From Synechococcus sp. CB0101 (GTDB taxonomy: Bacteria > Cyanobacteriota > Cyanobacteriia > PCC-6307 > Cyanobiaceae): 64,000 bases of DNA. The notes under the pieces were generated by a model, which saw only the letters and a list, made by a program, of their open reading frames with translations, did not search any database and had not been told where the DNA came from. The DNA lies in contig NZ_CP039373.1 in assembly GCF_000179235.2 (NCBI RefSeq), forward strand, positions 32 through 64,031. Direction: 5' to 3'. Positions 45,905 through 59,045 of the stretch are shown here, piece after piece. Position numbers and translations under genes: made by a program. Position 1 is the stretch's first letter. Each line of letters opens with the position of its first letter.

Positions 45905-46387
45905 ATGCGTATTTCTGCTCAAATGTTTTGGGGCCTCCTGCTGGCCTTGGTTCTCGTGCTCCTTCCAGCCGGCGCCGGGGCGGCGGAGATCCAGCGCTGG
46001 GATCTCCGCGATGGCGATGGTGAGCCTTGGGGGCTGGTGGTGTTCCCGCAGCCTGATCCCGCTTACGCCCCGGGCTGGAGGCTGCGGCTCACGGCCCGCA
46101 CACCTGCAGCGGCCCTGGATCACCATGAGCCCTTGCAGCTCGATGACGGCTTTGGCCGCCTCTGGCAGCTCGACAACCGCAGTGCCGAGCTCGTGGCGCC
46201 AGGCGAGTCGCCATTGCCGCTCCATTCGGCTCAGTTCGATCTAGAGGGCCTGCAGCCTCGCCCGAGTGCGGTGTTGCCCCTGCATCTCAAGCTGGTTTTG
46301 GCGGATGGGGAGGCAGAGCTTCTGCTCGGCCCCGACCAGGTGGCTGCCCTCAGCAGCCTTCCCGCAGCGCCATCAAACCAGTCTTGA
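45905..46387 (+). CDS. Secreted DUF3122-like protein
   Basis: A 160-residue protein with a signal peptide (MFWGLLLALVLVLLPAGAGA, cleavage before AEIQRW). The mature domain, with strands such as PWGLVVFPQPDP, GWRLRLTART and VLPLHLKLVLADGEAELLLG and the DHHEPLQLDD turn, resembles the cyanobacterial DUF3122 family, whose function is not known. It is divergent from psbA with a 94-base shared promoter region, and its final 15 bases overlap the convergent hemN end. I am moderately sure of the family. Confidence 0.62.
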   Translation: MRISAQMFWGLLLALVLVLLPAGAGAAEIQRWDLRDGDGEPWGLVVFPQPDPAYAPGWRLRLTARTPAAALDHHEPLQLDDGFGRLWQLDNRSAELVAPGESPLPLHSAQFDLEGLQPRPSAVLPLHLKLVLADGEAELLLGPDQVAALSSLPAAPSNQS

Positions 46388-47734
46388 GCCCGAGGCGCGT
46401 TGCCGCTGCGCTGGATCCAGCACCGCGGCAATCGTGCGGATCAGCCAGCGGCCCTCGGTGGTCACCGTGGCCTGCCCGCGGCCGCTGTGTTCACTTAATT
46501 TCACCAGCCCATCGCGGGCTAACTCCTGAAGCTGTTGCCACTCGAGGGCATAGCGCTCGAGCTCAAGCTCGAGGCTGAATGTGCACATCACCTGGCGAAT
46601 CAGCTCACGGCGTTCCAGTACCTCCGGATCGCGCACCACCAAGCCCCGTTCCACGGGTAGATGCCCTTCGGCCAGGGCCGCGGTGTAGGCCTTGAGATCG
46701 CGCTCGTTCTGGGCGAACAGGTGGGGAAATTGGCTGATCGCAGTGGGTCCCACCCCCAGCAGCTCCAGCTCGCCGCCGGTGGTGTAGCCCTGGAAATTCC
46801 GATGCAAGCGGCCGCTTCGGGCCGCGGCGGCCAGGCTGTCGCCAGCCAGGGCGTAGTGATCCATGCCGATAGCTTCGTAGCCGGCGGAGCAAAGCAGGCG
46901 TTGAGCGTCTTCGAGCATCACGATCCGTTCTCGCTGGCTCGGCAGATCATCAGCCGCGATCTTGCGTTGCAGTGGCAGTTGCTCCGGCAAATAGGCAAAC
47001 GAGAAGAGCGAGATGCGATCGGGGCGTAGCTCCTGCACCAGCTCAAGGGTTGTGCGGAAGCGATCGGGGGTCTGCAGGGGGAGGCCGCAGATCAGATCCA
47101 CGTTCACGCTCGCGAAGCTTGCCTCCCGCAGCCAACCCATCACCCGCCGCAGCTGCTCGACGGGCACCACCCTATTCACCGCCTTCTGCACCTCAGGGTC
47201 GGCATCTTGAATGCCGAAGCTGATGCGGTTGAAGCCCAGGGCGCGCAGCTGCAGGGCCGCATCACGGCTGAGAAATTCGGGATTCACCTCAATCGAGGCC
47301 TCCAGATCCGGCTCCAGATCGAAATGGCGCTCGATCAGTTGCCAGAGCTGCCGCGTTTCGTCGGCATTGAGATAGTTGGGCGTGCCACCGCCCCAATGCA
47401 GCTGGGCCAGGCGCCGCCGCTGTGGCATCGCCGCGCTGATCAGCTCCAATTCCTTGGCCAAGGCCGCCAGATACGGCTCCACCACCTTCGAGCCCAGCTG
47501 CGTGGTGATGCGGTTGCAGCCGCAGTACCAGCAGGCATGGCGGCAGAAGGGCACATGCACATACAGCGACAACGGCGCCGTAGTGGGCTGAGCCAACTGC
47601 GCCCGCAGCTCCGCCTCCCCCACCGCCGGGGTGAAGGCTGCCGCCGTGGGGTAGCTGGTGTAACGGGGAACCGGCTTGTCGTATTTGAGCAGCAGCTCGA
47701 TCGGGCTGAGGCTGGTGGTGGCGGCAGCAGGCAT
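46373..47734 (-). CDS. hemN: Oxygen-independent coproporphyrinogen III oxidase
   Basis: A radical-SAM enzyme that converts coproporphyrinogen III to protoporphyrinogen IX without O2, 453 residues. The 4Fe-4S motif lies at Cys64, Cys68 and Cys71 (VPFCRHACWYCGCN), with the extra Cys73 characteristic of true HemN rather than HemW. Other HemN hallmarks: KYDKPVPRYTSYPTA, LHWGGGTPNYL, GIQDADPEVQKAVNR and FAYLPEQLP. It replaces HemF when O2 is low. It follows the heme oxygenase gene by 44 bases, matching the ho2-hemN part of the Synechocystis low-oxygen operon. Confidence 0.96.
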   Translation of the reverse strand: MPAAATTSLSPIELLLKYDKPVPRYTSYPTAAAFTPAVGEAELRAQLAQPTTAPLSLYVHVPFCRHACWYCGCNRITTQLGSKVVEPYLAALAKELELISAAMPQRRRLAQLHWGGGTPNYLNADETRQLWQLIERHFDLEPDLEASIEVNPEFLSRDAALQLRALGFNRISFGIQDADPEVQKAVNRVVPVEQLRRVMGWLREASFASVNVDLICGLPLQTPDRFRTTLELVQELRPDRISLFSFAYLPEQLPLQRKIAADDLPSQRERIVMLEDAQRLLCSAGYEAIGMDHYALAGDSLAAAARSGRLHRNFQGYTTGGELELLGVGPTAISQFPHLFAQNERDLKAYTAALAEGHLPVERGLVVRDPEVLERRELIRQVMCTFSLELELERYALEWQQLQELARDGLVKLSEHSGRGQATVTTEGRWLIRTIAAVLDPAQRQRASGSRLV

Positions 47735-47778
47735 GGCAGAGGTGGAGGGTGGGCGTGGGAATCAATGGCGCAGGCGGT

Positions 47779-48471
47779 TCAGACCAGCTGGGCCAGCTCA
47801 GCCAGCAAGCGCTGGGTGGTGTGGAAGGCCAGAACGGCTTCCTCCAGCAGCTCCTCCTCTTCTTCTGCGGAGAGGTCCATCGCCTCGAAGCCGTCGTGAA
47901 GTTGATGCTTGAGGGTGGAGCGATCCTGGTCAAAGGCCCAGAAGTTCAGGGCCGGTCGCTCGTGGTTGCGCAGGATGGCGTTGGCCTGCTCCCCCAGCTG
48001 CTGGCCGCCGGAGAGGTCGCCGCCGTAGCGCACATACACATGGGCCATGAAGCGGTGGGGAGCCTGGCGGGCCAGTAGCCGGAGCTGCTCCAGCCAGATC
48101 GCAGCGGCCGCCGATGGGGGTGTGGCCTCCACCGTGGAGAGCGTGGCTAGATCGTGTTGCAGAGCAGCGCTGCGCTCCAGCGCTGCCCAGGGAATCGAGC
48201 GGCCACCAAGGGCGGAGGCCAGTTCTGGTCCCGCCTGCTCCAGCAGGGCATAGGCCGGTGCCAGGGCGCGCATCAAGGCGGCCAACTGGCGGGGCGAGGC
48301 CTCGCCGTTGAGCAGGGCCCGTGAGAACACCATGCCCTCCGCCTGGTGATGGGCCTTACCGATGCGGGCATGCAGCTTGCGCACCCGCGGGCCGAAGCCC
48401 TTGCGCAGCTGGGCGTCGGCAGGGCCGGCGTGGTCGGAGATCGAAGGCAGCTGAGCCGTGGAATCGAGCAT
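47779..48471 (-). CDS. ho: Heme oxygenase
   Basis: Opens heme to biliverdin, CO and iron using O2 and reduced ferredoxin, the first step of phycobilin synthesis. 230 residues, all helical. The proximal His is probably His41 in KAHHQAEGMVFSRALLNG. The distal helix glycine motif is YVRYGGDLSGGQQLGEQ, as in HO-1/HO-2. Its pairing with hemN on one transcript and its divergence from the constitutive HO pattern suggest the low-oxygen HO2 role (inference). The promoter region at 48472-48568 is shared with the divergent small gene. Confidence 0.92.
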   Translation of the reverse strand: MLDSTAQLPSISDHAGPADAQLRKGFGPRVRKLHARIGKAHHQAEGMVFSRALLNGEASPRQLAALMRALAPAYALLEQAGPELASALGGRSIPWAALERSAALQHDLATLSTVEATPPSAAAAIWLEQLRLLARQAPHRFMAHVYVRYGGDLSGGQQLGEQANAILRNHERPALNFWAFDQDRSTLKHQLHDGFEAMDLSAEEEEELLEEAVLAFHTTQRLLAELAQLV

Positions 48472-48508
48472 GGATGCAACCGCGGCATCGCGGCGCGAAC
48501 TGAGGCAA

Positions 48509-48531
48509 CGTTATAACGCTACTGTTGTTTC
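48509..48531. promoter_or_regulatory. CGTTATAACG palindrome and extended motif, ho promoter region
   Basis: A perfect 10-bp palindrome CGTTATAACG (48509-48518) begins the stretch ATAACGCTACTGTTGTTTC (48513-48531). It lies 38 bases upstream of the ho ATG and 51 upstream of the divergent gene's ATG. It shares 15 of 19 bases with a site upstream of psbA. It is a candidate binding site for the island's regulator. Confidence 0.5.
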
Positions 48532-48568
48532 GCAGTTCTCTGGTTGCGATTTCGTTGCAACCGTGCCG

Positions 48569-48937
48569 ATGGCTCATCCCTTCGCCTCTCAGCCGTTTCA
48601 GTCGCAGCTTGATGTGCAGTTATTACTGGCCCCCAGCCGCCAGCTCAGCGGTGATGGTCAGCTGCGCGAATTGATGCAGGAACGCCGCCGCCATCTCAGC
48701 GATGGCAGCGGCGGCCTCTGGTATCTGTCGCCGGAGCACCTGGCCGAGCTGCGGTTTTGCGGTCTGGAGCTCAGCGCGGGCAGCAACGAGGCTCTGGCGA
48801 TCCGTGACCCGCGAGCGGCGGAGTGGTTGCAGTTGCGCTTCGGGGGGCAGTTGCAACCCATCAGCCTGAGCAGCGCTTGGCTGATGGATGAGGCGCTGGA
48901 GCTTCCCGCTCCGGCGCCGTTGGCCAATGTCGGCTGA
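48569..48937 (+). CDS. Hypothetical protein within the low-oxygen island
   Basis: 122 residues, no signal peptide. The N-terminal half looks beta-rich (FQSQLDVQLLLAPSRQL) and the C-terminal half has LSPEHLAELRFCGLELSAGS and ISLSSAWLMDEALELP. I know no family. It is divergent from ho-hemN and shares their palindromic promoter element, which implies co-regulation. A longer in-frame version would start before that element; MAHPFASQ is preferred because it leaves the promoter free. Confidence 0.55.
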   Translation: MAHPFASQPFQSQLDVQLLLAPSRQLSGDGQLRELMQERRRHLSDGSGGLWYLSPEHLAELRFCGLELSAGSNEALAIRDPRAAEWLQLRFGGQLQPISLSSAWLMDEALELPAPAPLANVG

Positions 48938-48944
48938 GCGTTGC

Positions 48945-49646
48945 TCAGACCATGGCCGCTGCGGCCCCGGCCAGAATCCGCCGGGCCGCAGGCGGCTCGA
49001 AACCAATCGTTTCCAGTGTCTGCTGGAAAAGCTCACTGAAGCTGGCTACCAGCTCGATCGGATCCATCCCGATCGCCTGGAGGTCGGCGGTGAGGCTCTG
49101 CAGGATGCTGAGGGTAATCGGCAGAGCCCGTTTCGCGATCGCGGCAGCAGACGTCTCCACGGCAGCAAAACGCTCCCGCAGCCAGTGCTCGGCATAGCCG
49201 AGGTGCTCCCCCTCGTCCGCGATCACGGCCGCCGTGATCGGTGCGGCATAGGCATCGGCTACGGGGAGATAGTGGCGGTAGGCCGCCACCGCGAAGCACT
49301 CCACCACCAGTCCCTGGATCACCAGGCAGCCGGCCAGATCGCCCGCGCGGTCGCGTTCCAGAAACAGGGCGTGCAGGGGCGCGAAGAGCTGCCGGGCTAG
49401 CCCCACATCGGGCTTCACCCCAAGATTGCGGCCGCAGCCCACGAAATTGCTGGCGTGGCGGCCCTCCATGGCCGCCAGCCTCTCAAGCTCCTGCTGGTCT
49501 TCCGGAATGGCCCTGGCGAGGAGGCGGAAGTGCCGGTCAGCCAGACCTTCTCCCACAACCACCATGCCGTTGATGCGGCTATAGGCGTCGATGTAGATAG
49601 AGCTTTTGAATTGTGGTGTCCGAAGTGATGATGTGTCGAGGACCAT
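48945..49646 (-). CDS. Aldehyde-deformylating oxygenase (ADO) homologue
   Basis: A 233-residue ferritin-like diiron protein clearly related to cyanobacterial ADO, which turns fatty aldehydes into alkanes plus formate using O2. The full diiron set is in place: Glu33 (VGEGLAD), Glu61 and His64 (MEGRHASN), Glu116 (VVECFAVAAY), Glu145 and His148 (DEGEHLGYAE). ADO landmarks IDAYSRINGMVVVGEG, CGRNLGVKPD and LVIQGLVVECFA are conserved, but many other positions differ. The acyl-ACP reductase that normally sits beside ADO is absent. It is the last gene of the hemerythrin-AcsF-desaturase operon. Confidence 0.87.
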   Translation of the reverse strand: MVLDTSSLRTPQFKSSIYIDAYSRINGMVVVGEGLADRHFRLLARAIPEDQQELERLAAMEGRHASNFVGCGRNLGVKPDVGLARQLFAPLHALFLERDRAGDLAGCLVIQGLVVECFAVAAYRHYLPVADAYAAPITAAVIADEGEHLGYAEHWLRERFAAVETSAAAIAKRALPITLSILQSLTADLQAIGMDPIELVASFSELFQQTLETIGFEPPAARRILAGAAAAMV

Positions 49647-49649
49647 GCC

Positions 49650-50336
49650 TTAGAGCGGTAGGGGGTGATTGAGTGCTTGTCGGGCTGTTTCCCAAAGCTC
49701 TGATCTCGGCATCGAGCGACAGTCATCGAACCAGGGGCCGCCGAGCGTGTAGTGCAAGAGGCGAGCATCAGCAGGAACCTCCTGAACGCCAACTAGGACA
49801 TTCCATTGTGGTGGTAACGGACCGATCTCTTCAGTTGTGGTCCACTCGAACTGATGAAGTTCGAGTCCGCTAGCTGTGTTCACATAGTGCGGTGAAAGAG
49901 CTTTGCATCGTGCGCAGTTGAAGAGCATGACTGATGACCAGTTCTTACGGCGGTAAGGGCTCTGGGGCATGCCTTGGAACTTCCGGCCAGATGAGCAGTG
50001 GTGATTGTGCTGAACAACCTGTACTGCGTAGCGCTCGTCGCGTAGATCCCAGAGCTCAGTGATATCCCCTTGGCAGAGCATGTCTGCATCCATGAAAATC
50101 GCCCAATCTTGATAGCCACAGATCCATGGCACGAGGAATCTGCTGAAGGAGAATTCTGTGCTTTGAAGTGGATGCTTGGATCGGTGGTAGACGCCTTCAA
50201 TCTGTGTCAGTCTGACCTGCCCAATTTGTACGGGCTTACTTGCATGAGCCTGGATTGAATCTGTCAGAACATTGCCTGCGACGTCCTCTCTCGAGTCGAA
50301 GCCGATGAAGACTTTGATGGGATCAGATGGTTGCAT
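49650..50336 (-). CDS. Glycosyltransferase-like protein, lower GC
   Basis: 228 residues with a nucleotide-sugar transferase look. The N-terminal IKVFIGFDSREDVAGNVLTD opens the first Rossmann strand; the donor/metal motif is WAIFMDADMLCQG (DxD), and LFNCARCKAL and RLLHYTLGGPWFDD follow. It resembles GT8-like transferases; acceptor and product are unknown. Sampled lines of this gene are near 50% GC against over 60% in the flanking desaturase and cyclase genes, so it may be a later insertion into the operon. It joins the desaturase by a TGATG overlap and the ADO homologue by a 3-base gap. Confidence 0.75.
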   Translation of the reverse strand: MQPSDPIKVFIGFDSREDVAGNVLTDSIQAHASKPVQIGQVRLTQIEGVYHRSKHPLQSTEFSFSRFLVPWICGYQDWAIFMDADMLCQGDITELWDLRDERYAVQVVQHNHHCSSGRKFQGMPQSPYRRKNWSSVMLFNCARCKALSPHYVNTASGLELHQFEWTTTEEIGPLPPQWNVLVGVQEVPADARLLHYTLGGPWFDDCRSMPRSELWETARQALNHPLPL

Positions 50337-51196
50337 CAGTTTGTCTGTAAATGTGGGGCCAGGCGGATACGGCGCGCCAGGCCGAGGCGATGCAGCAGGC
50401 GGATGTGCTGCCAGGTGAGGTCGACCTCCCACCAGCGGAACCCCATGCGGGCGCTGCTGGGATAGGCGTGATGGTTGTTATGCCAACCCTCGCCGAAGGT
50501 GAGCAGCGCCACCCACCAGTTGTTGCGGGAGCCATCGCCGCTGGCATGGCTGACATAGCCCCAGCGATGGGTGGCGGAATTCACCAGCCAGGTGACGTGG
50601 TACACGAGCACGAGCCGCAGCGGAATGCCCCACAGCACCAGGGGCCAGCCGCCTAGGGCGTAGAGCAGTGCCGCCAGCGGCAGCTGGAGTAGCAGAAAGT
50701 TGCGGTTCAGCCAGCGGTAGTAGGGCACCCGTTGCATGTCGGGCGTGAGCTGGTGCACGTAGCGCTGGGCCGGCACATCCCGCAGCATCCAGCCGAAGTG
50801 GCTCCACCAGAAACCGAGATGGCTGTTGTGGTGGTCGGCCGGATCGTCGGAATGGAGATGGTGGTGGCGGTGCAGCCCCACCCAATCGATCGGGCCGTGT
50901 TGGCAGCTGAGGGTGCCGCAGGTGGTGATCAGCGCCTCAAGCCAGCGGGGCACCGTGAAGGCTCCATGGGCCAGGAGGCGGTGGTAACCGAGCGTGACCC
51001 CTACACAGGCGGTGAGCCAATAGAGCACCAACAGCGTGCCGATCGCCTCCCAGCTCCAGAAGCGGGGCAACAACGCCACCAGGGCGAGGGCGTGAATCAC
51101 GACCATGAACACGGTGGTGCCCCATCGGCGCCGCTGGCGGCGGGGGCTCACGCTGATGCCGCTCCTCAGCGGCGGCATGCTCCGGGCGGTCGTCAT
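50336..51196 (-). CDS. desC: Acyl-lipid delta-9-type fatty acid desaturase
   Basis: A 286-residue membrane diiron enzyme that inserts a double bond into acyl chains using O2 and ferredoxin. It shows the three His boxes of DesC-type desaturases: YHRLLAHGAF, GLHRHHHLHSDDPADHHNSH and EGWHNNHHAYPSSARMG, with four membrane segments between them. Substrate position is inferred from family similarity. Its start overlaps the acsF stop by 4 bases and its stop overlaps the glycosyltransferase start, so it is fixed in the operon. A separate housekeeping desaturase presumably exists elsewhere. Confidence 0.92.
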   Translation of the reverse strand: MTTARSMPPLRSGISVSPRRQRRRWGTTVFMVVIHALALVALLPRFWSWEAIGTLLVLYWLTACVGVTLGYHRLLAHGAFTVPRWLEALITTCGTLSCQHGPIDWVGLHRHHHLHSDDPADHHNSHLGFWWSHFGWMLRDVPAQRYVHQLTPDMQRVPYYRWLNRNFLLLQLPLAALLYALGGWPLVLWGIPLRLVLVYHVTWLVNSATHRWGYVSHASGDGSRNNWWVALLTFGEGWHNNHHAYPSSARMGFRWWEVDLTWQHIRLLHRLGLARRIRLAPHLQTN

Positions 51197-52197
51197 GCCG
51201 CCACCTCCATCGGCTGGAGGAACTGGCGCAGCAGCAGGCTGGCGAAGTGCAGCTTCAGCCCCAGCTGGTGCACGGGTTGCCCCTGGCTGGCTTTGATCCG
51301 GCGGAAGGTGTCCACCAGCTGATCACGCAGCTCGAAATAGGTGGGCGTGAGCTGAAATACCACCGGAAAGGCGCGGCGGGCCGTGCGGTTGGTCTGGCGC
51401 ATCACCTCCGCATCAAAACGGTCGGGATCCATGCCGAGCAGGCGATAAAAGTTGCCGCGCTCACACACCGTGAGGCTGTGGGTGAGAAACACGCTCCAGA
51501 GGAAGAAGCGGCTGAGCAACCGGCCGCGCAGGCCGCTGTTGAGGCCGGGCCAGCAGCGGATCAGCATGTTGAAGATGTCGCCGTGGCGGTTCTCGTCCTG
51601 ACACCAGGGCTCAAAGAAATCGAACAGCGGCGCGAAGGCGTTCTCCGGATTGGCCTTGAGATGGCGATCGATCAGGATGTAGCGCCAGTAGCCGATCTTT
51701 TCGGATAGATACACCGAATAGAGCACCCAATTCAACGGGAACCAGGTCACCGGCCGTTTGCCACTGAGGGCTGGCAAATCGATGACAATGCCCTCGGCCA
51801 CCAGGGCTCGATTCAGAAAGCCCGCGTGGCGAGCTTCATCGCGCGCCATCAGGTTGAACAGGCGGCTGAGCTCAGGCCGTTTGGCGAGCTTGAGCTGGCG
51901 TGAGAGTTCTTTGAAGAGCAGGAATCCCGAAAACTCCGACACGCAGGAGCGCACCAGATAGCTTTCATAGGCTTCTTTTTGCTCGGGGGCGAGGTCGCGC
52001 AGGCGATCCAGGGGCGCCTTGCGATCGAAGTGGTCGCGGTTGTAGTCGGCCTCCATTTCATTGAGCATCGCCTCAAAAGCGGGGCGCTCCGCCTCGAGAT
52101 CCGTTCGGGCGGCCTTGGCGATTTCGGTGGTGTAGAAGCGCGGCGTGAGCAGGTCTTCGCTCAGGTGCGGTGCAGGAGCGGCAGAGGTGGCAGTCAT
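51193..52197 (-). CDS. acsF: Mg-protoporphyrin IX monomethyl ester oxidative cyclase
   Basis: The diiron AcsF/ChlA enzyme that forms ring E of chlorophyll using O2, 334 residues. The paired ExxH motifs appear in LMARDEARHAGFLNRAL and PWCQDENRHGDIFNML. The signatures PRFYTTEIAKAARTDLEAER, YNRDHFDRKAPLD and KIGYWRYILIDRHLKANPEN are standard. Cyanobacteria such as Synechocystis have a second copy (ChlAII) in a low-oxygen operon with ho2 and hemN; operon context suggests this is that copy. It overlaps the hemerythrin-like gene (TGATG) and the desaturase gene (4 bases). Confidence 0.95.
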   Translation of the reverse strand: MTATSAAPAPHLSEDLLTPRFYTTEIAKAARTDLEAERPAFEAMLNEMEADYNRDHFDRKAPLDRLRDLAPEQKEAYESYLVRSCVSEFSGFLLFKELSRQLKLAKRPELSRLFNLMARDEARHAGFLNRALVAEGIVIDLPALSGKRPVTWFPLNWVLYSVYLSEKIGYWRYILIDRHLKANPENAFAPLFDFFEPWCQDENRHGDIFNMLIRCWPGLNSGLRGRLLSRFFLWSVFLTHSLTVCERGNFYRLLGMDPDRFDAEVMRQTNRTARRAFPVVFQLTPTYFELRDQLVDTFRRIKASQGQPVHQLGLKLHFASLLLRQFLQPMEVAA

Positions 52198-52649
52198 CAG
52201 CGGACAGAAGCGTTGGAGCGGGCGATGCCGTAGGCCGTGGCATCGGGGCCGTGGCGGTGGTTGGTGAACCAGCTCTGCAGTGCGAGCAACCAGCGCAGGC
52301 GCGCCTGGCGATCGCCGGAGGTCTCGAGCAGAGCGGCTTTGGCGTCGTTGACGGCTTGCAGATGCACGCCGCGGTGCCCTGGGCAGAGGCAGCCCTGCGC
52401 TGAAAGCCAGCGCTCTTCCAGGCGCAGGTGCAGGCGTAAATCCCAGATCAGCCGCCGGCAACCACGCTCAATCGCCAACGCTTCAGCCGCAGTCCAGGCA
52501 GGCTGCATGGGGCCATGGAGCCAGAGCAGTTCAGCCAGGTTGGCCTCAAGCCCGTCGTGTTGACGTTCCAGCAAAGGCTCTTGGTCGACCCAGCGCCGCG
52601 GCCATAGCCAGGGCTTGGCGCGGACGGGTTCAGCGAGCAGCACAGCCAT
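52197..52649 (-). CDS. Hemerythrin-like protein
   Basis: A 150-residue helical protein in which I see the full set of diiron ligands of a hemerythrin. His31 is in RQHDGLEANL, His74 and Glu78 in LRLHLRLEERW, His92 and His96 in PGHRGVHLQA, and His131 and Asp136 in NHRHGPDATAYG. That is the H...HxxxE...HxxxH...HxxxxD order of bacteriohemerythrins, which bind O2. It is the first gene of the operon, overlaps acsF by TGATG, and has an ATAACG element 34 bases before its ATG. Overall similarity to known families is low, so the call rests on the motif. Confidence 0.65.
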   Translation of the reverse strand: MAVLLAEPVRAKPWLWPRRWVDQEPLLERQHDGLEANLAELLWLHGPMQPAWTAAEALAIERGCRRLIWDLRLHLRLEERWLSAQGCLCPGHRGVHLQAVNDAKAALLETSGDRQARLRWLLALQSWFTNHRHGPDATAYGIARSNASVR

Positions 52650-52683: not shown

Positions 52684-52748
52684 ATAACGGCATCGTGATT
52701 CTGCAGATCACGCAACAGTGAGATCCCTTGAGCGCTAGAGCGCGTTAT
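52684..52748. promoter_or_regulatory. Inverted ATAACG/CGTTAT pair between the hemerythrin-like and ArsR genes
   Basis: ATAACG at 52684-52689, within ATAACGGCATCGTGATTC, lies 35-40 bases upstream of the leftward hemerythrin-like operon. CGTTAT at 52743-52748, its inverse, lies 27-32 bases before the rightward ArsR ATG. Each core sits at operator distance from one of the two divergent genes. The same hexamer occurs upstream of psbA and ho. Confidence 0.45.
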
Positions 52749-52774
52749 CTTTCTCCTGCGTGACCGGTGGGGCT

Positions 52775-53080
52775 ATGGAGCACCTGGCTGAATACTTCAA
52801 GGTGTTTTCGGAGCCCAATCGACTGGCGGTGCTGGAGGCTCTCCGAGGTGGCCCACTCAACGTCACCGCTGTGGTGGAGAAAACCGCGCTCAGTCAGGCC
52901 CTGGTGTCGAAGCACCTCAAGCTGCTCACCATCGCTGGTGTGGTGCAGCGCCGGCCGGAGGGGTCGCTGGTGTTTTACGAGGTGAACGACAAGGCCGTGT
53001 TCAAGCTGATCGCCCAGGCAGAGAAGCTCCTGCTCGCCTCCCGCCGTCAGCAATTGGATGCCCTGGCCGCGATCCTCTGA
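52775..53080 (+). CDS. ArsR-family regulator without cysteines
   Basis: A 101-residue winged-helix protein: EYFKVFSEPNRLAVLEALRG, the recognition helix region LSQALVSKHLKLLTIAGVVQ and the beta wing RRPEGSLVFYEV. It contains no cysteine, so the usual metal-thiolate or persulfide sensing of the family is excluded; a non-cysteine effector, cofactor or simple autoregulation remains. It is divergent from the hemerythrin-AcsF operon and is the only DNA-binding regulator inside the island, so it is the first candidate to control it. A GTG five codons upstream is an alternative start. Confidence 0.85.
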   Translation: MEHLAEYFKVFSEPNRLAVLEALRGGPLNVTAVVEKTALSQALVSKHLKLLTIAGVVQRRPEGSLVFYEVNDKAVFKLIAQAEKLLLASRRQQLDALAAIL

Positions 53081-53706
53081 TGGAGCCCCAACCCAGTGAC
53101 CTTGCCCAGTTGCGAGCGGCGTTGGCGGCTGGGCAGAAGGATCTCCGCTCGCTGAGGCTTGGCGAGATCGATGGTCTCGACCTCGACTTATCTGGATGCA
53201 ACCTGGATGGCAGCTGCTTCAAAGAAGCCCGCTTCGGCCACGCCACGTTGCGAGGAGCGCAGGCCCATCGCTGTTGCTTTCAGCAGGCCTTGATCTGGGG
53301 TGCCGATCTCTCGGAGCTGGATGCCCCATCGTCGTGTTGGCATGAAGCCGATCTATCGGGATCGCGGCTTCAGGGAGCCAATTTCAGCCATGCGCTGATG
53401 CATCGCTGCTGTCTGCGTGGCGTTGTGGCGGCGAGGAGTGTCTGGCGCAGTGCCCGGCTCGTGGAAGCTGATTTCCGTTCAGGCCAGGATCAACTCACCG
53501 ATCTCGGGTATGCGGATTTTTCGGGAGCCGATCTCAGTTTTGCGTTGCTTCAGGGGGCCAACCTGCACGCAGCCATCTTGAAAGGCAGCTGCCTCTACGG
53601 GGCGAATCTGCGCGGTTGTGATCTTCGGGGAGCCGACCTGCGCGATTGCGATCTACGCGATACCCAATTGCAGGATGCCCAGATGGACGGTGCGCTGATC
53701 GACTGA
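53080..53706 (+). CDS. Pentapeptide-repeat protein
   Basis: A 208-residue right-handed quadrilateral beta-helix protein. Runs of the A(D/N)LxG pentapeptide appear from about residue 35 (LDLSGCNLDGSCFKEARFGH) to the end (ANLRGCDLRGADLRDCDLRD). The middle part (about residues 90-150) has more degenerate repeats and several Cys. Such proteins are abundant in cyanobacteria with mostly unknown functions; some bind DNA gyrase or sit in the lumen. No signal peptide is seen. Its ATG overlaps the ArsR stop, so the two are co-translated. Confidence 0.9.
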   Translation: MEPQPSDLAQLRAALAAGQKDLRSLRLGEIDGLDLDLSGCNLDGSCFKEARFGHATLRGAQAHRCCFQQALIWGADLSELDAPSSCWHEADLSGSRLQGANFSHALMHRCCLRGVVAARSVWRSARLVEADFRSGQDQLTDLGYADFSGADLSFALLQGANLHAAILKGSCLYGANLRGCDLRGADLRDCDLRDTQLQDAQMDGALID

Positions 53707-53710
53707 GCGC

Positions 53711-55786
53711 CTAGATCGCCACCAGCCATCGACCAACCATGGCCAGGGCGAGTGCCAGGCCTGAGGATCCGAGCCAGCTCGCGCGCTGGGTTGCAAACTG
53801 ACGCCGCAATAGAACCACGGCGCCAAGCCAGCCCACGAGCAGCACAGCGCTTTGGCAGAAAGCGATCACGTGAGGGTCGGCGCTCCAGGCGGGCAGCGCC
53901 GTGCTCCATTCCGGCCCCCAGGCTGATGCCGACACTGGCAACAGCATCCCGGCTTCGCCCATGCCCAGGGGCAGATGGCGCGCCAGGAGCAAGGCCCACA
54001 CCAGCGGTAGCAAGCCATAAAGCCCCTGCAGCAAGCGTTGTTTGGGCACAACCAACCCGGCTAACCCAAACAGTCCCGCCGGGAGTGCCAGCGCCAAGCT
54101 GGCCACCGCCAACCGTGGCAGAAGATGGCCATCGCTGAGGCTGGCCGGGGCAGCCGGGAGCCAGCCAAGAAGGCGCTGCCAGTGATGCAAGCTGAGATCA
54201 CCGGCCAGGATCAGGAGCAAGGCGGGTTCACCCGGTGGAAGGTCCATCGTGCGTTGGATATCCGCTGCGGGAGGCCGCAAGGAGAGCTGAACGGAGCGGT
54301 GCGGGCAGGCCTGAGCGCAGGTGAGGCAAAGCACGCAATTGCGGTTGTCATTCAAATGGGCGGGGTGCGTCCCAAGTGGGCAGCCGTTGGTGCGCAGGCC
54401 TTCTCCATCGGCGGGGCCGCCTTTGAAGCAGGCATAGCTACTGCAACTGCCGCTGCAGGTACCCACCTGAGCGCGCAATTCGAGAATCGATAGTTTGGCG
54501 AACAGACCATTCATTCCCCCAACTGGGCATAGATAGCGGCACCAGAACCGCTTCTCGTAGCGAAGCGATCCCAGGACGGCACCAGCTGTAATCAGCAGCA
54601 GCAGGCAACTGCTCAGCCAGGCTGTATTGCCCAGATTCCACACTTCCTCCCACAGCAGGATCAGGGCAAATCCGCCCGCCAGCACAGGCGATGCCCAGGT
54701 GTCGGACTCACCTCTGGGCCACCGGCCGGGCTGATGCCCCAGGGCGCGTGAGAGACGCTGCGCCATCTCCCCCCAAACCATGAAGGGGCAGATGGAGCAC
54801 CACAGTCGCCCCACCAAGGGAAAGCTCAGCAGGATCAAGGGCCACCACCAGGCCCAAAACAAGTTGAGGGCGCCGTTATGGCTGCGGTCTTGAGGTCCCA
54901 TCCACAGCCACACATTCACCAGCACAAACACCCAGCTCACCAGGCCAAACAGCAAGCTGTTCCAGAGCCATGGCGCCCGCATCAGGCCCCGCAGATAAGG
55001 CTTCCAGCGCCAGATGTCAAAGCGATAGCGCTGTTGCCGAGCCGGCGTCCAGAACACGTCTTCAGGAAGCAGATCTGGAAACGACTCTTGGTTTTGACAC
55101 CGTGCCTGTTGCAGCGCGCGATGGATCAGCTCTTCCAGTTCGCGCAGATTGTTCGGAAAGTCGTAGTTCTGGAGTCGTTTGATCACCGAATCCTGTACAT
55201 CCGGCGGTGTGCTCCAGCCCATCTTGCGGCTCTGTTGCCGGATCCCGTAGCGCAACCATTCCCCCAGATCACCACGGCGGACGCGCAGAGGCGGAACGCG
55301 GATCGTGGTGCAAAACGAATCAAACTCTGGCTGCGCGGTTTCGGTGGTGAAAAACAACCGCGCCTCGCAACGGTGCTTCCTGCCTTCACCCCAAGTTTTG
55401 TCCTTGGCTAACTGCACTAGGCGAGGCATGAGAGCCTCGGGCACGTGCTCCAGCTGGTCGATGAGCAGGGAGCCCGCCCCCAGCAGTTCCAAGACCCCAC
55501 CAGTGCCGAACAGATCACTGCCATCTGGTTTGAGCAGTGCCCCATCGAGGCGAACCATCAGCTGTTTCCGCGCCGATGAGCCGAAGTGAATCAGGGCGGC
55601 CAGGTTGTCTTTTTCGAGGCCGGGTTCACCCGTGATCAGCACGGGGCGCCCATCGTTTTCGTGCGCGACCTGGCGCACGGCGTCGCGCAACGAACGGGCA
55701 TAACGGCTGCTGCCCACAACGCCGCGTCGCACCCGCCCTACCAACAGGGGAGCCAGCTTCAGCAACTCCGGGGAAACGTTGGGCAA
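53711..55786 (-). CDS. Degenerate NtrC-type AAA domain fused to NapH/NosR-like Fe-S membrane protein
   Basis: 691 residues, TTG start. Residues 30-230 follow a sigma-54 activator AAA+ core (VLITGEPGLEKDNLAALIHF, RVPPLRVRRGDLGEWL, NNLRELEELIHRAL), but Walker A is GEPGLEK, Walker B ends IDQ instead of DE, and no GAFTGA loop or DNA-binding domain is present. Residues 270-430 have membrane helices with CSICP (330-334) and CRYLCP (416-421), as in NapH/NosR/CcoG. A [4Fe-4S] ferredoxin motif, CVLCLTCAQACP, is at 484-495. More helices follow. It probably moves electrons across the membrane, with the AAA part regulatory or structural. Confidence 0.85.
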   Translation of the reverse strand: MPNVSPELLKLAPLLVGRVRRGVVGSSRYARSLRDAVRQVAHENDGRPVLITGEPGLEKDNLAALIHFGSSARKQLMVRLDGALLKPDGSDLFGTGGVLELLGAGSLLIDQLEHVPEALMPRLVQLAKDKTWGEGRKHRCEARLFFTTETAQPEFDSFCTTIRVPPLRVRRGDLGEWLRYGIRQQSRKMGWSTPPDVQDSVIKRLQNYDFPNNLRELEELIHRALQQARCQNQESFPDLLPEDVFWTPARQQRYRFDIWRWKPYLRGLMRAPWLWNSLLFGLVSWVFVLVNVWLWMGPQDRSHNGALNLFWAWWWPLILLSFPLVGRLWCSICPFMVWGEMAQRLSRALGHQPGRWPRGESDTWASPVLAGGFALILLWEEVWNLGNTAWLSSCLLLLITAGAVLGSLRYEKRFWCRYLCPVGGMNGLFAKLSILELRAQVGTCSGSCSSYACFKGGPADGEGLRTNGCPLGTHPAHLNDNRNCVLCLTCAQACPHRSVQLSLRPPAADIQRTMDLPPGEPALLLILAGDLSLHHWQRLLGWLPAAPASLSDGHLLPRLAVASLALALPAGLFGLAGLVVPKQRLLQGLYGLLPLVWALLLARHLPLGMGEAGMLLPVSASAWGPEWSTALPAWSADPHVIAFCQSAVLLVGWLGAVVLLRRQFATQRASWLGSSGLALALAMVGRWLVAI

Positions 55787-55915
55787 GCGCCTGCAGAGCG
55801 GCTGAATTCAGTCTGGTTCGGCTGCTCCATCAGCGCATAGCGCCTCTGTGGCTTGCGCCGCTCTTCATACGATGCAGAAAGGCCCCATGCCGTGTGCTCC
55901 TGGGTGTTGGCTCGC

Positions 55916-56815
55916 ATGAAACCACCCCCGCTCGATCGATCGGTCCAGAGGTTGCGACGACGATCCGGCCTCTTGGTTTCGATGGATCGTCGCGGTGGCT
56001 GGCTGCGGCATTGGCGTGAGCCGTACCTCTTGGCGCTGGCGATGTCGTGGCCGGCCTTTCTGGCCTCGGTAGCGCTGGTTTACCTCGCGATCAACCTGCT
56101 GTTTGCGGGGCTGTACTCGCTGGATCCTGGCGGGATTGGTGGTGCAACAGGAGAGGTCGTCAGCTTCGCGGAGGCCTTCTTCTTCAGTGTGCAAACCCTC
56201 GGCTCCATCGGCTACGGCGTTCTGCACCCGGTGAGCCTGTATGCCCATCTCGTGGTGACAGCGGAATCCCTGAGTGGATTGCTGTTCATTGCCCTCACCA
56301 CCGGGTTGGCCTTCGCGCGGTTTTCCCGCAGTACGGCGCGGATTCGCTTCTCCCACCTGGCCGTGATTCACAGCTACAACGGCTCGCCAACGTTGGCGTT
56401 TCGCTTAGCTAATGAGCGCCGCAACGGCTTGCTGGAGGCTCGCCTGCGGGTGTTCCTCTCGGTGGATGAGGTGAGCGTTGAGGGGCATCGCATGCGCCGC
56501 CTCAAGCCGTTGGCTCTGGAGCGCGATCAGGGCATTGCGTTTTTGTTGATCTGGACGGCCATGCACCGCATCGATGCCAGCAGTCCGCTGCATGGAATGG
56601 GCCCAGATCAGTTGCGGGAGCTCAATGCCGAGCTGGTGGTGGCCTTCTCCGGCATCGATGAAACATTGGAGAGGCCGGTGCATGCCCGAGCAAGCTGGCC
56701 TGTGGAGCAGATCGCATTCGGCCGCTGCTTTGTCGACATGCTGGAGCAACACCAGGGCGAAACCCGCATCGATTGGTCGCTGTTTGATCGCACCCGCCTT
56801 TGCCCTGTCGATTGA
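55916..56815 (+). CDS. Inward-rectifier (KirBac-type) potassium channel
   Basis: A 299-residue K+ channel with two membrane helices around a pore loop: SWPAFLASVALVYLAINLLF, the filter region FSVQTLGSIGYGVLHP, and SLSGLLFIALTTGLAFARF. The cytoplasmic immunoglobulin-like domain of Kir channels follows (RFSRSTARIRFSHLAVIHSY, RLANERRNGLLEARLRVFLS). The filter TLGSIGYG keeps the essential GYG. An in-frame TTG 21 codons upstream is possible, but MKPPPLDRS is favoured. It is divergent from the Fe-S fusion gene, and the next methyltransferase gene starts 9 bases after it. Confidence 0.9.
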   Translation: MKPPPLDRSVQRLRRRSGLLVSMDRRGGWLRHWREPYLLALAMSWPAFLASVALVYLAINLLFAGLYSLDPGGIGGATGEVVSFAEAFFFSVQTLGSIGYGVLHPVSLYAHLVVTAESLSGLLFIALTTGLAFARFSRSTARIRFSHLAVIHSYNGSPTLAFRLANERRNGLLEARLRVFLSVDEVSVEGHRMRRLKPLALERDQGIAFLLIWTAMHRIDASSPLHGMGPDQLRELNAELVVAFSGIDETLERPVHARASWPVEQIAFGRCFVDMLEQHQGETRIDWSLFDRTRLCPVD

Positions 56816-56824
56816 GTTGTTGTC

Positions 56825-57475
56825 ATGACCCACTCCCCCGCCCCCGACACCGGTTCCTGGTGGGATCAGCGCTACCGCGAGGGCAGTGATCGCTGGGAGC
56901 TGGGCTCACCGGCGCCTCCCCTGCAACTGTTCTTCTCGGAGCATGCGCAGGCGCCGAAGCCCCCCGCCCAGGTGCTGGTGCCGGGCTGCGGCCGCGGCCA
57001 TGAAGCCGTGTTCCTGGCTGCCTTGGGCTTTGCCGTGGTGGGGTTGGATTTCAGTGCCGAGGCGATTGCGGAAGCACGTCGTCTGCATGGGGAGCAGCCC
57101 GCTCGCCTGCGCTGGCTCCAGGCGGATCTGTTGGATGGGGGCGCCTTGGAAGCGGCAGGGTTGGGCCCAGCCAGCTGCGATGGGGTGCTGGAGCACACCT
57201 GTTACTGCGCCATTGATCCCCACCTGCGGCCGGCCTACCGCCAAAGCGTGGCGCGGTTGATCAAGCCCCAGGGCTGGCTGCTGGGCCTCTTCTGGTGCCA
57301 TGGACGCCCAGGCGGACCGCCCTACGGCAGCGATGCCGACCAACTGGTGGCTGACTTCACGGCGGCTGGTTTCAGCCAGGAGTTGTGGTTCCCCGCCACC
57401 AATTCCGCCCCGGGTCCCGACAACCAACCCCGCGATCACGAATGGGTTGGCCTCTGGCGCCGGGTTGCACACTGA
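56825..57475 (+). CDS. TPMT-family methyltransferase
   Basis: A 216-residue SAM methyltransferase of the thiopurine S-methyltransferase-like family: WWDQRYREGSDRWELGSPAP at the N-terminus, motif I VLVPGCGRGHEAVFLAALGF, VVGLDFSAEAIAEA, and CDGVLEHTCYCAIDPHLRPA, a family signature. Relatives methylate thiols, halides, selenium or tellurium compounds, or harmful sulfur. Substrate unknown. It lies 9 bases after the Kir gene and its end overlaps the flavoprotein gene by 11 bases. Confidence 0.87.
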   Translation: MTHSPAPDTGSWWDQRYREGSDRWELGSPAPPLQLFFSEHAQAPKPPAQVLVPGCGRGHEAVFLAALGFAVVGLDFSAEAIAEARRLHGEQPARLRWLQADLLDGGALEAAGLGPASCDGVLEHTCYCAIDPHLRPAYRQSVARLIKPQGWLLGLFWCHGRPGGPPYGSDADQLVADFTAAGFSQELWFPATNSAPGPDNQPRDHEWVGLWRRVAH

Positions 57476-59045
57476 AGGGCAGCGTCAACAAGCTGCTCTG
57501 GCTTCCCAGCAGACCCCAGATCTGATCGTTGTGGGCAGCGGCCTGGGAGGGCTGTGCTGCGGAGCCCTAGCCGCTCGCCATGGCTTGGAGGTGCTGGTGC
57601 TCGAGGCCCACGACCGGCCAGGCGGCGCCGCCCACTGCTTTGAGCGGCGCGGCTTTCAGTTCGAATCCGGCCCGTCGTTGTGGAGCGGCCTGGGCCGTTG
57701 GCCTTCCGCCAACCCCCTGGCCCAGGTGCTGCGGGCCGTGGGGGAATCGGTGCCGGTGGTGCCTTATCAGGAGTGGGGGCTGCTGCTGCCGGAGGGGAAC
57801 CTGCGCATCGGCGTAGGGGCTGAGCCGTTCCTCGAGGCACTGCAGCAGTTGCGTGGTCCAGGGGCTGTGGCCGAGTGGCGGGCCTTCATGCGTTGGCTGG
57901 AGCCCTATTGCCGGGCGGCCGCGTCGCTGCCTCTGCTGGCCATGCGGCCGGGGCTGGGCATGGCGGGTGTCCTAGGCGCGCGCGGATCGGCCACCCTGCT
58001 GCGGCAGGCACCGCGGTTGGCGGCCCTGGGGGGGGCATTCGGTCCGATGGCGCGGCGGCAGCTCAAGGATCCGTTCCTGCTCCATTGGGTGGAGATGCTC
58101 TGCTTCCTGATCTCGGGTCTGCCGATGGATCAGACCAGTGCCGCCGCCATGGCCACCCTGTTCGGCGAGTGGTTTGAGCCGAACGCCAGCCTCGACTACC
58201 CCATCGGTGGCAGCGCTGCGGTGGCGGAGGCGTTGGTGCGTGGCTTGCAGCGCCATGGCGGTGAGCTTCGCTGCCGCGCCGCGGTGAAACAGATCCGCCT
58301 CGATGGCAACCGCGCCGTTGGCGTGGAGCTGGAGAACGGCGAGCAGCTCGATGCCCGCCTGGGGGTGGTGAGCAATGCCAGCCCCTGGGACACCCTGGGC
58401 CTGCTGCCCGAGGAGGGGGTGCTGCGCCGCTGGAGCCGCCAGACCGCAGCCACCCCGGCCTGCGCCAGCTTCCTGCACTGGCATGTGGGCCTGCGCGGCG
58501 ATGGGCTCAACGAACTACCGATCCATCACGTGTGGGTGGGCGACTGGCAGCGGGGCATCGGAGCAGAGCGCAATATGCTGGTGTTCTCGATGCCATCGCT
58601 CCTGGATCCTGCGCTGGCGCCGGAGGGGCATCATCTGCTGCATGCCTACAGCCCGGCCAATGAACCCTGGGAGCTGTGGAAGGATCTCGAGCCCGGCAGC
58701 AGCGCCTATGAGGCGCTCAAGGCGGAGCGTTGTGGCCTGTTCAAGGAGGTGTTCAGCCAGCTGGTGCCCGATCTGGCGGATCGGATCGTGCTGGAACTGC
58801 AGGGCACGCCTCACACGCATCGGCGTTATTTGCGGGTGCATCAAGGCAGCTATGGCCCTGCCATCGGTGCCGATCGCTCGCCATTCCCGGGTGGCAGCAC
58901 GCCGATCGAGGGCCTACAGCTCTGCGGGGCCGGCGTGTTCCCCGGGATTGGCGTACCGCCGGTGGCCGTGAGCGGGGCGATGGCGGCCCACAGTTTTGTG
59001 CCCCTGGCGAAGCAGAAGGCGCTGATCCAGGAGCTGGGGCTCTAA
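57465..59045 (+). CDS. CRTISO-like FAD-dependent oxidoreductase
   Basis: A flavoprotein of about 526 residues similar to carotene isomerase (CrtH)/phytoene-desaturase-like proteins. The dinucleotide motif is DLIVVGSGLGGLCCGALAAR, with LEAHDRPGGAAHCFERRGFQ after it. The middle contains SGLPMDQTSAAAMATLFGEW and DYPIGGSAAVAEALVRGL, and the C-terminus has TPIEGLQLCGAGVFPGIGVP, the usual FAD-binding end. No in-frame ATG precedes the Rossmann motif closely, so a TTG at 57465, overlapping the upstream stop, is the likely start. It might be a second isomerase or an unrelated amine-oxidase-type enzyme. Confidence 0.83.
   Translation: MHTEGQRQQAALASQQTPDLIVVGSGLGGLCCGALAARHGLEVLVLEAHDRPGGAAHCFERRGFQFESGPSLWSGLGRWPSANPLAQVLRAVGESVPVVPYQEWGLLLPEGNLRIGVGAEPFLEALQQLRGPGAVAEWRAFMRWLEPYCRAAASLPLLAMRPGLGMAGVLGARGSATLLRQAPRLAALGGAFGPMARRQLKDPFLLHWVEMLCFLISGLPMDQTSAAAMATLFGEWFEPNASLDYPIGGSAAVAEALVRGLQRHGGELRCRAAVKQIRLDGNRAVGVELENGEQLDARLGVVSNASPWDTLGLLPEEGVLRRWSRQTAATPACASFLHWHVGLRGDGLNELPIHHVWVGDWQRGIGAERNMLVFSMPSLLDPALAPEGHHLLHAYSPANEPWELWKDLEPGSSAYEALKAERCGLFKEVFSQLVPDLADRIVLELQGTPHTHRRYLRVHQGSYGPAIGADRSPFPGGSTPIEGLQLCGAGVFPGIGVPPVAVSGAMAAHSFVPLAKQKALIQELGL

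Follow-up and report, generated by a model that had tools for sequence, protein, structure and literature searches.

Polyferredoxins of the NapH type carry a CxxCP/CxxxCP pair together with two [4Fe-4S] cysteine sets. Proteins with the NapH-like domain PF12801 are described in excerpts of PMC8238504 as modular electron conduits; of the examples studied, most have an FMN-binding head. CcoG, according to the available part of PMC8267372, is a membrane protein with two ferredoxin-like cysteine motifs that acts as a cupric reductase. The gene studied here lies in a 64,000-nucleotide stretch of Synechococcus sp. CB0101 DNA (the window), and its product resembles each of these systems in part.

With NapH/MauN (TIGR02163) the protein shares the helices, the CxxCP and CxxxCP motifs and the Fe-S cysteine stretch, which align with profile positions 76 to 253 out of 255. 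Its score, however, is 39 bits where the cut-off stands at 213, and it also has extra C-terminal helices and a cytosolic AAA head. As in the FMN-headed NosR and PceC, a separate head sits on a PF12801 polyferredoxin module, but here no FMN-binding domain was found, an inactive activator core forms the head and the gene has no conserved neighbour. The two cysteine motifs recall CcoG, as far as the part of PMC8267372 describes it, whereas the AAA head sets the protein apart; no CcoG-named family appeared at E ≤0.01 among the best 25 family matches of the window protein. Finally, the protein shares with FleQ, NtrC1 and PspF its AAA fold and lid and the placement of the P-loop lysine. Unlike these activators, however, the protein is membrane-bound, lacks the third P-loop glycine, the Walker B glutamate, the GAFTGA loop and any detectable helix-turn-helix (HTH) domain, and comes from a genome in which no sigma-54 was found. 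The AAA-polyferredoxin architecture matched no title among the literature matches listed, the search having most subscription journals outside its scope.

Domain architecture and lost activator motifs

The open reading frame encodes 691 amino acids, with TTG as the sole start in frame and no internal stops, and is present in one copy in its own 2.79-Mb genome. Its features are as follows; rows are those of an alignment of 131 copies.

53711..55786, minus strand: whole gene (691 aa), an AAA pseudo-activator core joined to a polyferredoxin membrane module
55037..55723, minus strand: AAA core of the NtrC type with its lid, aa 22-250 (PF00158/PF25601; VIA-align Z ~21 to FleQ and NtrC1)
55604..55630, minus strand: degenerate Walker A GEPGLEKDN, aa 53-61 (K59 in all 130 ungapped rows; the remaining row has a gap here)
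55496..55513, minus strand: site of the deleted GAFTGA loop, LFGTGG, aa 92-97 (GAFTGA in 0/131 rows)
55451..55480, minus strand: degenerate Walker B GAGSLLIDQL, aa 103-112 (Glu at aligned position 111 in 0/130 rows)
53714..55015, minus strand: polyferredoxin membrane module, aa 258-691 (PF12801 twice)
54785..54799, minus strand: CxxCP motif, aa 330-334 (C330/C333, both in 131/131 rows)
54524..54541, minus strand: CxxxCP motif, aa 416-421 (C416/C420, both in 131/131 rows)
54302..54457, minus strand: eight-cysteine stretch, aa 444-495 (all eight in 131/131 rows)

The alignment comprises the window copy, 28 other members of its family (f1), 22 further copies and the top 80 among 562 named loci, ordered by their similarity to a single copy that in turn shares 94% identity with a Thermosynechococcus protein. 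Rows of this alignment are not independent of one another, and some possibly come from the same species.

A preliminary description, made from the sequence of the window, had read the gene as an NtrC-type AAA domain fused to a NapH-like polyferredoxin, and this architecture is confirmed by Pfam, by the TIGR02163 alignment and by structural comparison of an AlphaFold model with FleQ and NtrC1. Pfam finds a partial Sigma54_activat domain (best aa 24-95), AAA_lid_14 (168-244) and Fer4_5 twice, with no HTH, FMN-binding or cNMP_binding domain in the 691-aa protein, and a sequence search of the PDB matched the AAA cores of NifA, NtrX, PspF and FleQ. In the model of the whole protein (pLDDT 79.4, pTM 0.62), aa 18-248 superimpose on the FleQ AAA core with Z 21.3 and an rmsd of 2.5 Å over 219 aligned residues, and on NtrC1 with Z 21.2; because of this structural match, the NtrC-type identity goes beyond chance. 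The lid and the sequence DFPNNLREL are kept, and membrane helices follow. A PHROGs search gave two weak matches only, of unknown function. A PF00158 search of the same genome gave four more weak places, all in other long reading frames.

The losses described at first sight, of the third P-loop glycine, the Walker B glutamate, the GAFTGA loop and the HTH domain, are borne out by the sequence and by Pfam. In the window copy, glutamate replaces the third P-loop glycine (position 58) while the lysine is retained, and Walker B reads LLIDQ, without its glutamate. The glycine is missing from all 29 f1 rows, each of which has glutamate, and is present in 32/101 other rows. Despite the lost Walker B glutamate and GAFTGA, the aligned copies retain the P-loop lysine, R168 and E216. 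The losses are thus conserved in homologues, and a relative with both intact Walker motifs and GAFTGA, which would have made the window copy a simple decayed gene, was not found, although some relatives keep a full P-loop. In eight close pairs, all inside f1, dN/dS was 0.063-0.317 for the AAA half and 0.045-0.141 for the membrane half; both pairs that include the window copy are near synonymous saturation and were not used for this estimate. In pairs with the window copy the AAA half is 67-69% conserved, against 78% for the membrane half. Both halves are therefore under purifying selection inside f1, and the motif losses are a state of the family rather than decay of the window copy. The term 'broken', as first applied to the AAA domain, is right as to the motifs and wrong as to the decay it implies.

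A search for sigma-54 (PF04963) was negative in all 51 genomes, including that of the window, while 4 of the 14 control genomes were positive. A role as a sigma-54 activator, already ruled out in the preliminary description, is contradicted because the motifs are lost in all 131 aligned copies and sigma-54 is found in 0/51 genomes, and we reject it.

Outside f1 the protein is ~850 aa long and starts with a CRP-like domain; PF00027 was found in 17 of the 19 members of alignment A2, which counts two f1 members among its 19. The f1 members that we read start just upstream of the AAA core, and the CRP-like domain is absent from the window protein. Where the domain is present, its ligand cassette appears by eye to be degenerate, without the Gly-Glu and Arg usual in the canonical motif.

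In the membrane module 12 cysteines and H474, the sole invariant histidine, are found in 131/131 rows. The two CxxC(x)P-type motifs are among these invariant residues, in agreement with the initial view of a redox-type membrane protein that carries a dead activator core. The 12 cysteines hold the NapH order of CxxCP, CxxxCP and Fe-S cysteines, with one set unusually spaced. A single 4Fe-4S site had been proposed; Fe-S cysteines are indeed present, but the eight of the C-terminal stretch (444, 448, 453, 469, 484, 487, 490 and 494) would suit two [4Fe-4S] clusters and not one. The clusters are predicted to be cytosolic because the loops with the cysteine motifs are net positive and lie on the same side as the AAA head. 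Two further histidines (in-module positions 238 and 276) are ≥90% conserved, and the module may, given its conserved histidines, bind heme.

TIGR02163 scores 38-39 bits over aa 324-501 of the window protein, far under its cut-off; over the Fe-S stretch, two copies of the main subfamily (type I) score 39 and 48 bits and a copy of the second subfamily (type II) 32. The NosR model (cut-off 1000) gave no score for the window protein and 14.8 and 21.9 bits for two other members. AlphaFold2 of aa 259-691 alone gave pLDDT 79.7 and pTM 0.81, with the Fe-S stretch modelled at low confidence. This model had no confident match among solved structures (the top Foldseek hit had E 0.28 and the top VIA hit Z 5.0 across 157 residues), and a sequence search of solved structures returned three matches, all in the Fe-S stretch (best E 0.0081).

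Gene position and neighbours

The neighbourhood of the gene in the window contains the following features.

53080..53706, plus strand: pentapeptide-repeat protein, convergent neighbour (Pfam)
52760..53080, plus strand: ArsR/SmtB-type regulator, neighbour
51193..52461, minus strand: second acsF (oxidative cyclase; acsF2), neighbour; the other acsF copy is at G000:C1:303600
46373..47734, minus strand: hemN of the low-oxygen island
53715..55917, no strand assigned: inserted stretch bearing the gene; the sister species G015 has this island without it

The low-oxygen island (46373-52461) comprises hemN, heme oxygenase, aldehyde deformylating oxygenase, a fatty-acid desaturase and the second acsF, as well as a reading frame that by eye is a putative glycosyltransferase-like one. 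On the other side, the gene adjoins a prokaryotic inward-rectifier-type potassium channel (Kir; 55853-56815, PF17655).

Two related genomes, G008 and G015, carry the same island, with the proteins from hemN to Kir 87-98% identical, and lack the gene there. Window positions 52701-53714 and 55918-57500 match a G015 locus (L179) in which only 7 bases lie between them. In G008 and G015 the gene is found at other sites; these two copies share 94% identity, and their identity to the window copy is 73%. The corresponding native site in the window genome (G000:C1:350422-350480) is empty, with 59 bases against ~2.2 kb in G008. DNA flanking this site groups the window genome with G015 and then G008 (100/99, 100/100), with identities of 84 and 82% (G015, G008) against 74-79% for the 7 congeners compared; G003 and G012 are distant. 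This DNA is independent of the island and bears out G008 and G015 as sister species of the window genome. In the gene tree, in contrast to the flanks, the window copy groups with those of G003, G012 and G199 (100/98), and a grouping with G008, G015 and G022 is rejected (p-AU 2.7e-10, for a group picked after the tree was seen and a window branch that is long, 0.29). The inserted stretch, which lies between the pentapeptide and Kir genes, has an unremarkable GC content. The simplest reading is that the native copy was lost and a diverged copy gained inside the island.

The preliminary description had placed the gene beside the low-oxygen island and taken this as a pointer to oxygen or redox. 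The gene does adjoin the acsF2, ArsR and pentapeptide genes in the window, but the link to oxygen drawn from its position is unsupported as put forward, the gene being inserted in the window genome, adjacent to these genes in 2 of 20 f1 neighbourhoods and near acsF in 0/80 loci elsewhere. Of the 32 f1 members besides the window copy that had a match, 20 had their neighbourhood fetched, and two of these show the acsF2-ArsR-pentapeptide adjacency, as the window does; G026, picked because its contig held both genes, also has it. In G026 and in these two, the gene lies downstream of the pentapeptide gene and is co-directional with it, opposite to the arrangement in the window, and because of this difference in orientation the adjacency to the ArsR-pentapeptide pair probably arose at least twice. 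Placement by the same pair in two lineages is suggestive of a weak, post hoc residual link to oxygen. In L151, L152 and L177, from two other genera, the gene is downstream of this ArsR-pentapeptide pair and co-directional with it, with ~1 kb between; in L151 this gap holds a reading frame read by eye as a putative pyridoxamine phosphate oxidase.

Among the 80 named loci outside f1, neither acsF nor heme oxygenase was seen beside the gene, hemN had one partial match (28%), and ArsR relatives at 41-51% were found five times; together with six type II loci, these gave 16 pentapeptide and 2 Kir matches. No neighbour of type I is conserved across the 80 named loci, the commonest occurring in 13. 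The suggestion that the gene is always near acsF or hemN fails on both the f1 neighbourhoods and the named loci, and a constant link of this kind is rejected. The low-oxygen neighbourhood is mostly local. Within the window's genus the gene is present in 9/9 genomes with a second acsF and in 11/16 without, which is not significant (p ~0.08, calculated by hand, with several genomes incomplete). Hydrogenase occurs in 15/40 genomes with the gene and 14/40 without, and pyruvate:ferredoxin oxidoreductase (PFOR) in 14/40 and 15/40, so that neither is associated with it; the two sets of 40 were hand-picked and tallied by hand, many absences being the complement of the class match list, and one genome counted as having the gene, G092, carries it with an in-frame TGA.

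Type II relatives, found in some genomes and on two plasmids, are 36-47% identical to the window protein over the matched part. Their GKT P-loop is intact, while the AAA part of the seven copies read lacks, by eye, the Walker B glutamate and GAFTGA. In 6 of the 8 type II loci (L155, L156, L157, L158, L171, L172, L192 and L193; the exceptions are L192 and L193) cysK follows on the same strand, no more than 1.2 kb downstream, and in four of them it is the very next gene. Genes for SQR-like flavoproteins are nearby in L155 and L156 (95-97 bits, under the model cut-off), and other neighbours are rhodanese (L158, where the type II copy is split by stops) and psbA (L157). By annotation, both plasmids carry psbA and Rieske genes, one of them a MerR-type regulator and the other DsrE and rhodanese; the Aulosira regulator is of the MerR type. 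These neighbours suggest that type II may be a sulfide-linked branch. An excerpt of PMC12466478, on sulfide genes, holds nothing concerning the type I/II family.

Proposed function and its alternatives

The reading we favour, to which we give about an even chance, is a conserved cyanobacterial membrane electron-transfer protein with a docking or gating AAA head. The C-terminal module would pass electrons between the membrane, probably its quinone, and a cytosolic acceptor or donor, along a path of two putative [4Fe-4S] clusters and the CxxCP and CxxxCP cysteines, all on the cytosolic side. In the activator core both ATP hydrolysis and the contact with sigma-54 would be gone. The head would then serve as a cytosolic docking or gating domain, perhaps binding nucleotide without turning it over, and electron flow would be set by the binding of a partner or by the oligomer state. 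A more specific version, offered tentatively and with somewhat poorer prospects, is that the sigma-54 activator core was co-opted as the pseudo-ATPase gate of a membrane Fe-S conduit, which would deliver electrons from quinone or ferredoxin to a target of the sulfur, metal or Fe-S kind, the sulfide-linked branch still binding ATP. Because most cyanobacteria sampled keep the AAA-polyferredoxin fusion intact, the activator core has probably been reused for membrane electron handling and has not simply decayed. In favour of the conduit stand the 12 invariant cysteines and H474, the weak NapH alignment of the membrane module and its stand-alone occurrence in other organisms, the net-positive cysteine loops on the AAA side, purifying selection on both halves inside f1, the loss of the Walker B glutamate and GAFTGA with the P-loop lysine, R168 and E216 retained, and the negative search for sigma-54. 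Against it stand the NapH scores far under the cut-off, the want of a conserved type I neighbour in the named loci, and a membrane model with no confident solved match and a poorly modelled Fe-S stretch. The family would be a conduit of the PF12801 kind with another head. If it is a conduit, the protein would be a widespread redox component of oxygenic phototrophs, in which the core of a transcription activator is reused outside transcription.

It is rather unlikely that the protein is instead a redox or oxygen sensor, in which the Fe-S part would read the state of plastoquinone or oxygen and the dead head, accompanied in most species by the CRP-like domain, would release or sequester a regulator. 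The sensor origin of the head domains is in keeping with such a role, as are the adjacency of the gene to acsF2 and an ArsR regulator in two lineages and the type II copy beside a MerR-type regulator gene. However, no output domain was found, the ligand cassette of the CRP-like domain is apparently lost (by eye), co-occurrence with hydrogenase or PFOR is absent in the comparison of 40 with 40 genomes, and most copies examined are not near low-oxygen genes.

Less probable still is that the protein, like CcoG, reduces a metal (cupric ions, for example) or serves as an assembly factor, a role that its cysteine motifs, similar in style to those described for CcoG, would fit. Stand-alone homologues of the membrane module hint weakly at metals by their neighbours. 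That of Deinococcus ficus (28% identity over 373 columns; L173:5027-7308) overlaps by 4 bases the gene of a strikingly histidine-rich protein, a possible metal-binding partner, and a haloarchaeal one adjoins a P-type ATPase with a heavy-metal domain. These homologues are distant, however, and in the 80 named loci type I has no conserved neighbour of any kind. The Synechocystis gene slr1529 is a candidate member of the family. Two expression papers (PMC3516471, PMC4182526), in the parts available, give its product the name nitrogen assimilation regulatory protein, and one of them lists it among the genes repressed by high copper (ratio 0.29), which would favour a role in metal reduction if slr1529 indeed belongs to the family. 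Its knockout is among the six most changed metabolite profiles at 72 h, according to an excerpt of PMC5318462.

The protein occurs in most sampled genomes of the class and bears the label of nitrogen regulator in one record or more, yet such a role is very unlikely: an NtrC/NtrX-type transcription regulator of nitrogen assimilation would agree with the fold of the AAA core and with the annotation of one type II copy as 'nitrogen assimilation regulatory protein', but HTH is undetected, GAFTGA and the Walker B glutamate are gone, and sigma-54 was not found in any of the 51 genomes searched. We hold it equally implausible, and reject, that this is a single gene decaying in the window genome only, as its long branch (0.29) and absent N-terminal domain could suggest, since the same losses run across the aligned copies, every cysteine is kept, the frame is intact, dN/dS is low in f1 and the short N-terminus is common to the f1 members read.

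Distribution

Matches to the protein were found in 202 of the 290 genomes of the class and in 104 of 131 genera, as well as in 38 of 60 relatives of the window genome. Of the 202, three have weak matches only (E ~2e-4), and the best E of 14 more is 1e-80 to 1e-130; three of the latter (G037, G040 and G264), when opened, belonged to the second subfamily, and the others may be second subfamily or fragments. Because such matches are included, type I is somewhat rarer than 202/290. In a phylum sample, the 58 genomes from outside the class had no match stronger than E 3e-12, and those seen lay over either the CRP-like domain or the Fe-S part. In one genus (code g46), two single-contig genomes, G140 and G092, hold copies with one in-frame TGA, and other genomes of that code have no match; gene losses may be recent and ongoing there.
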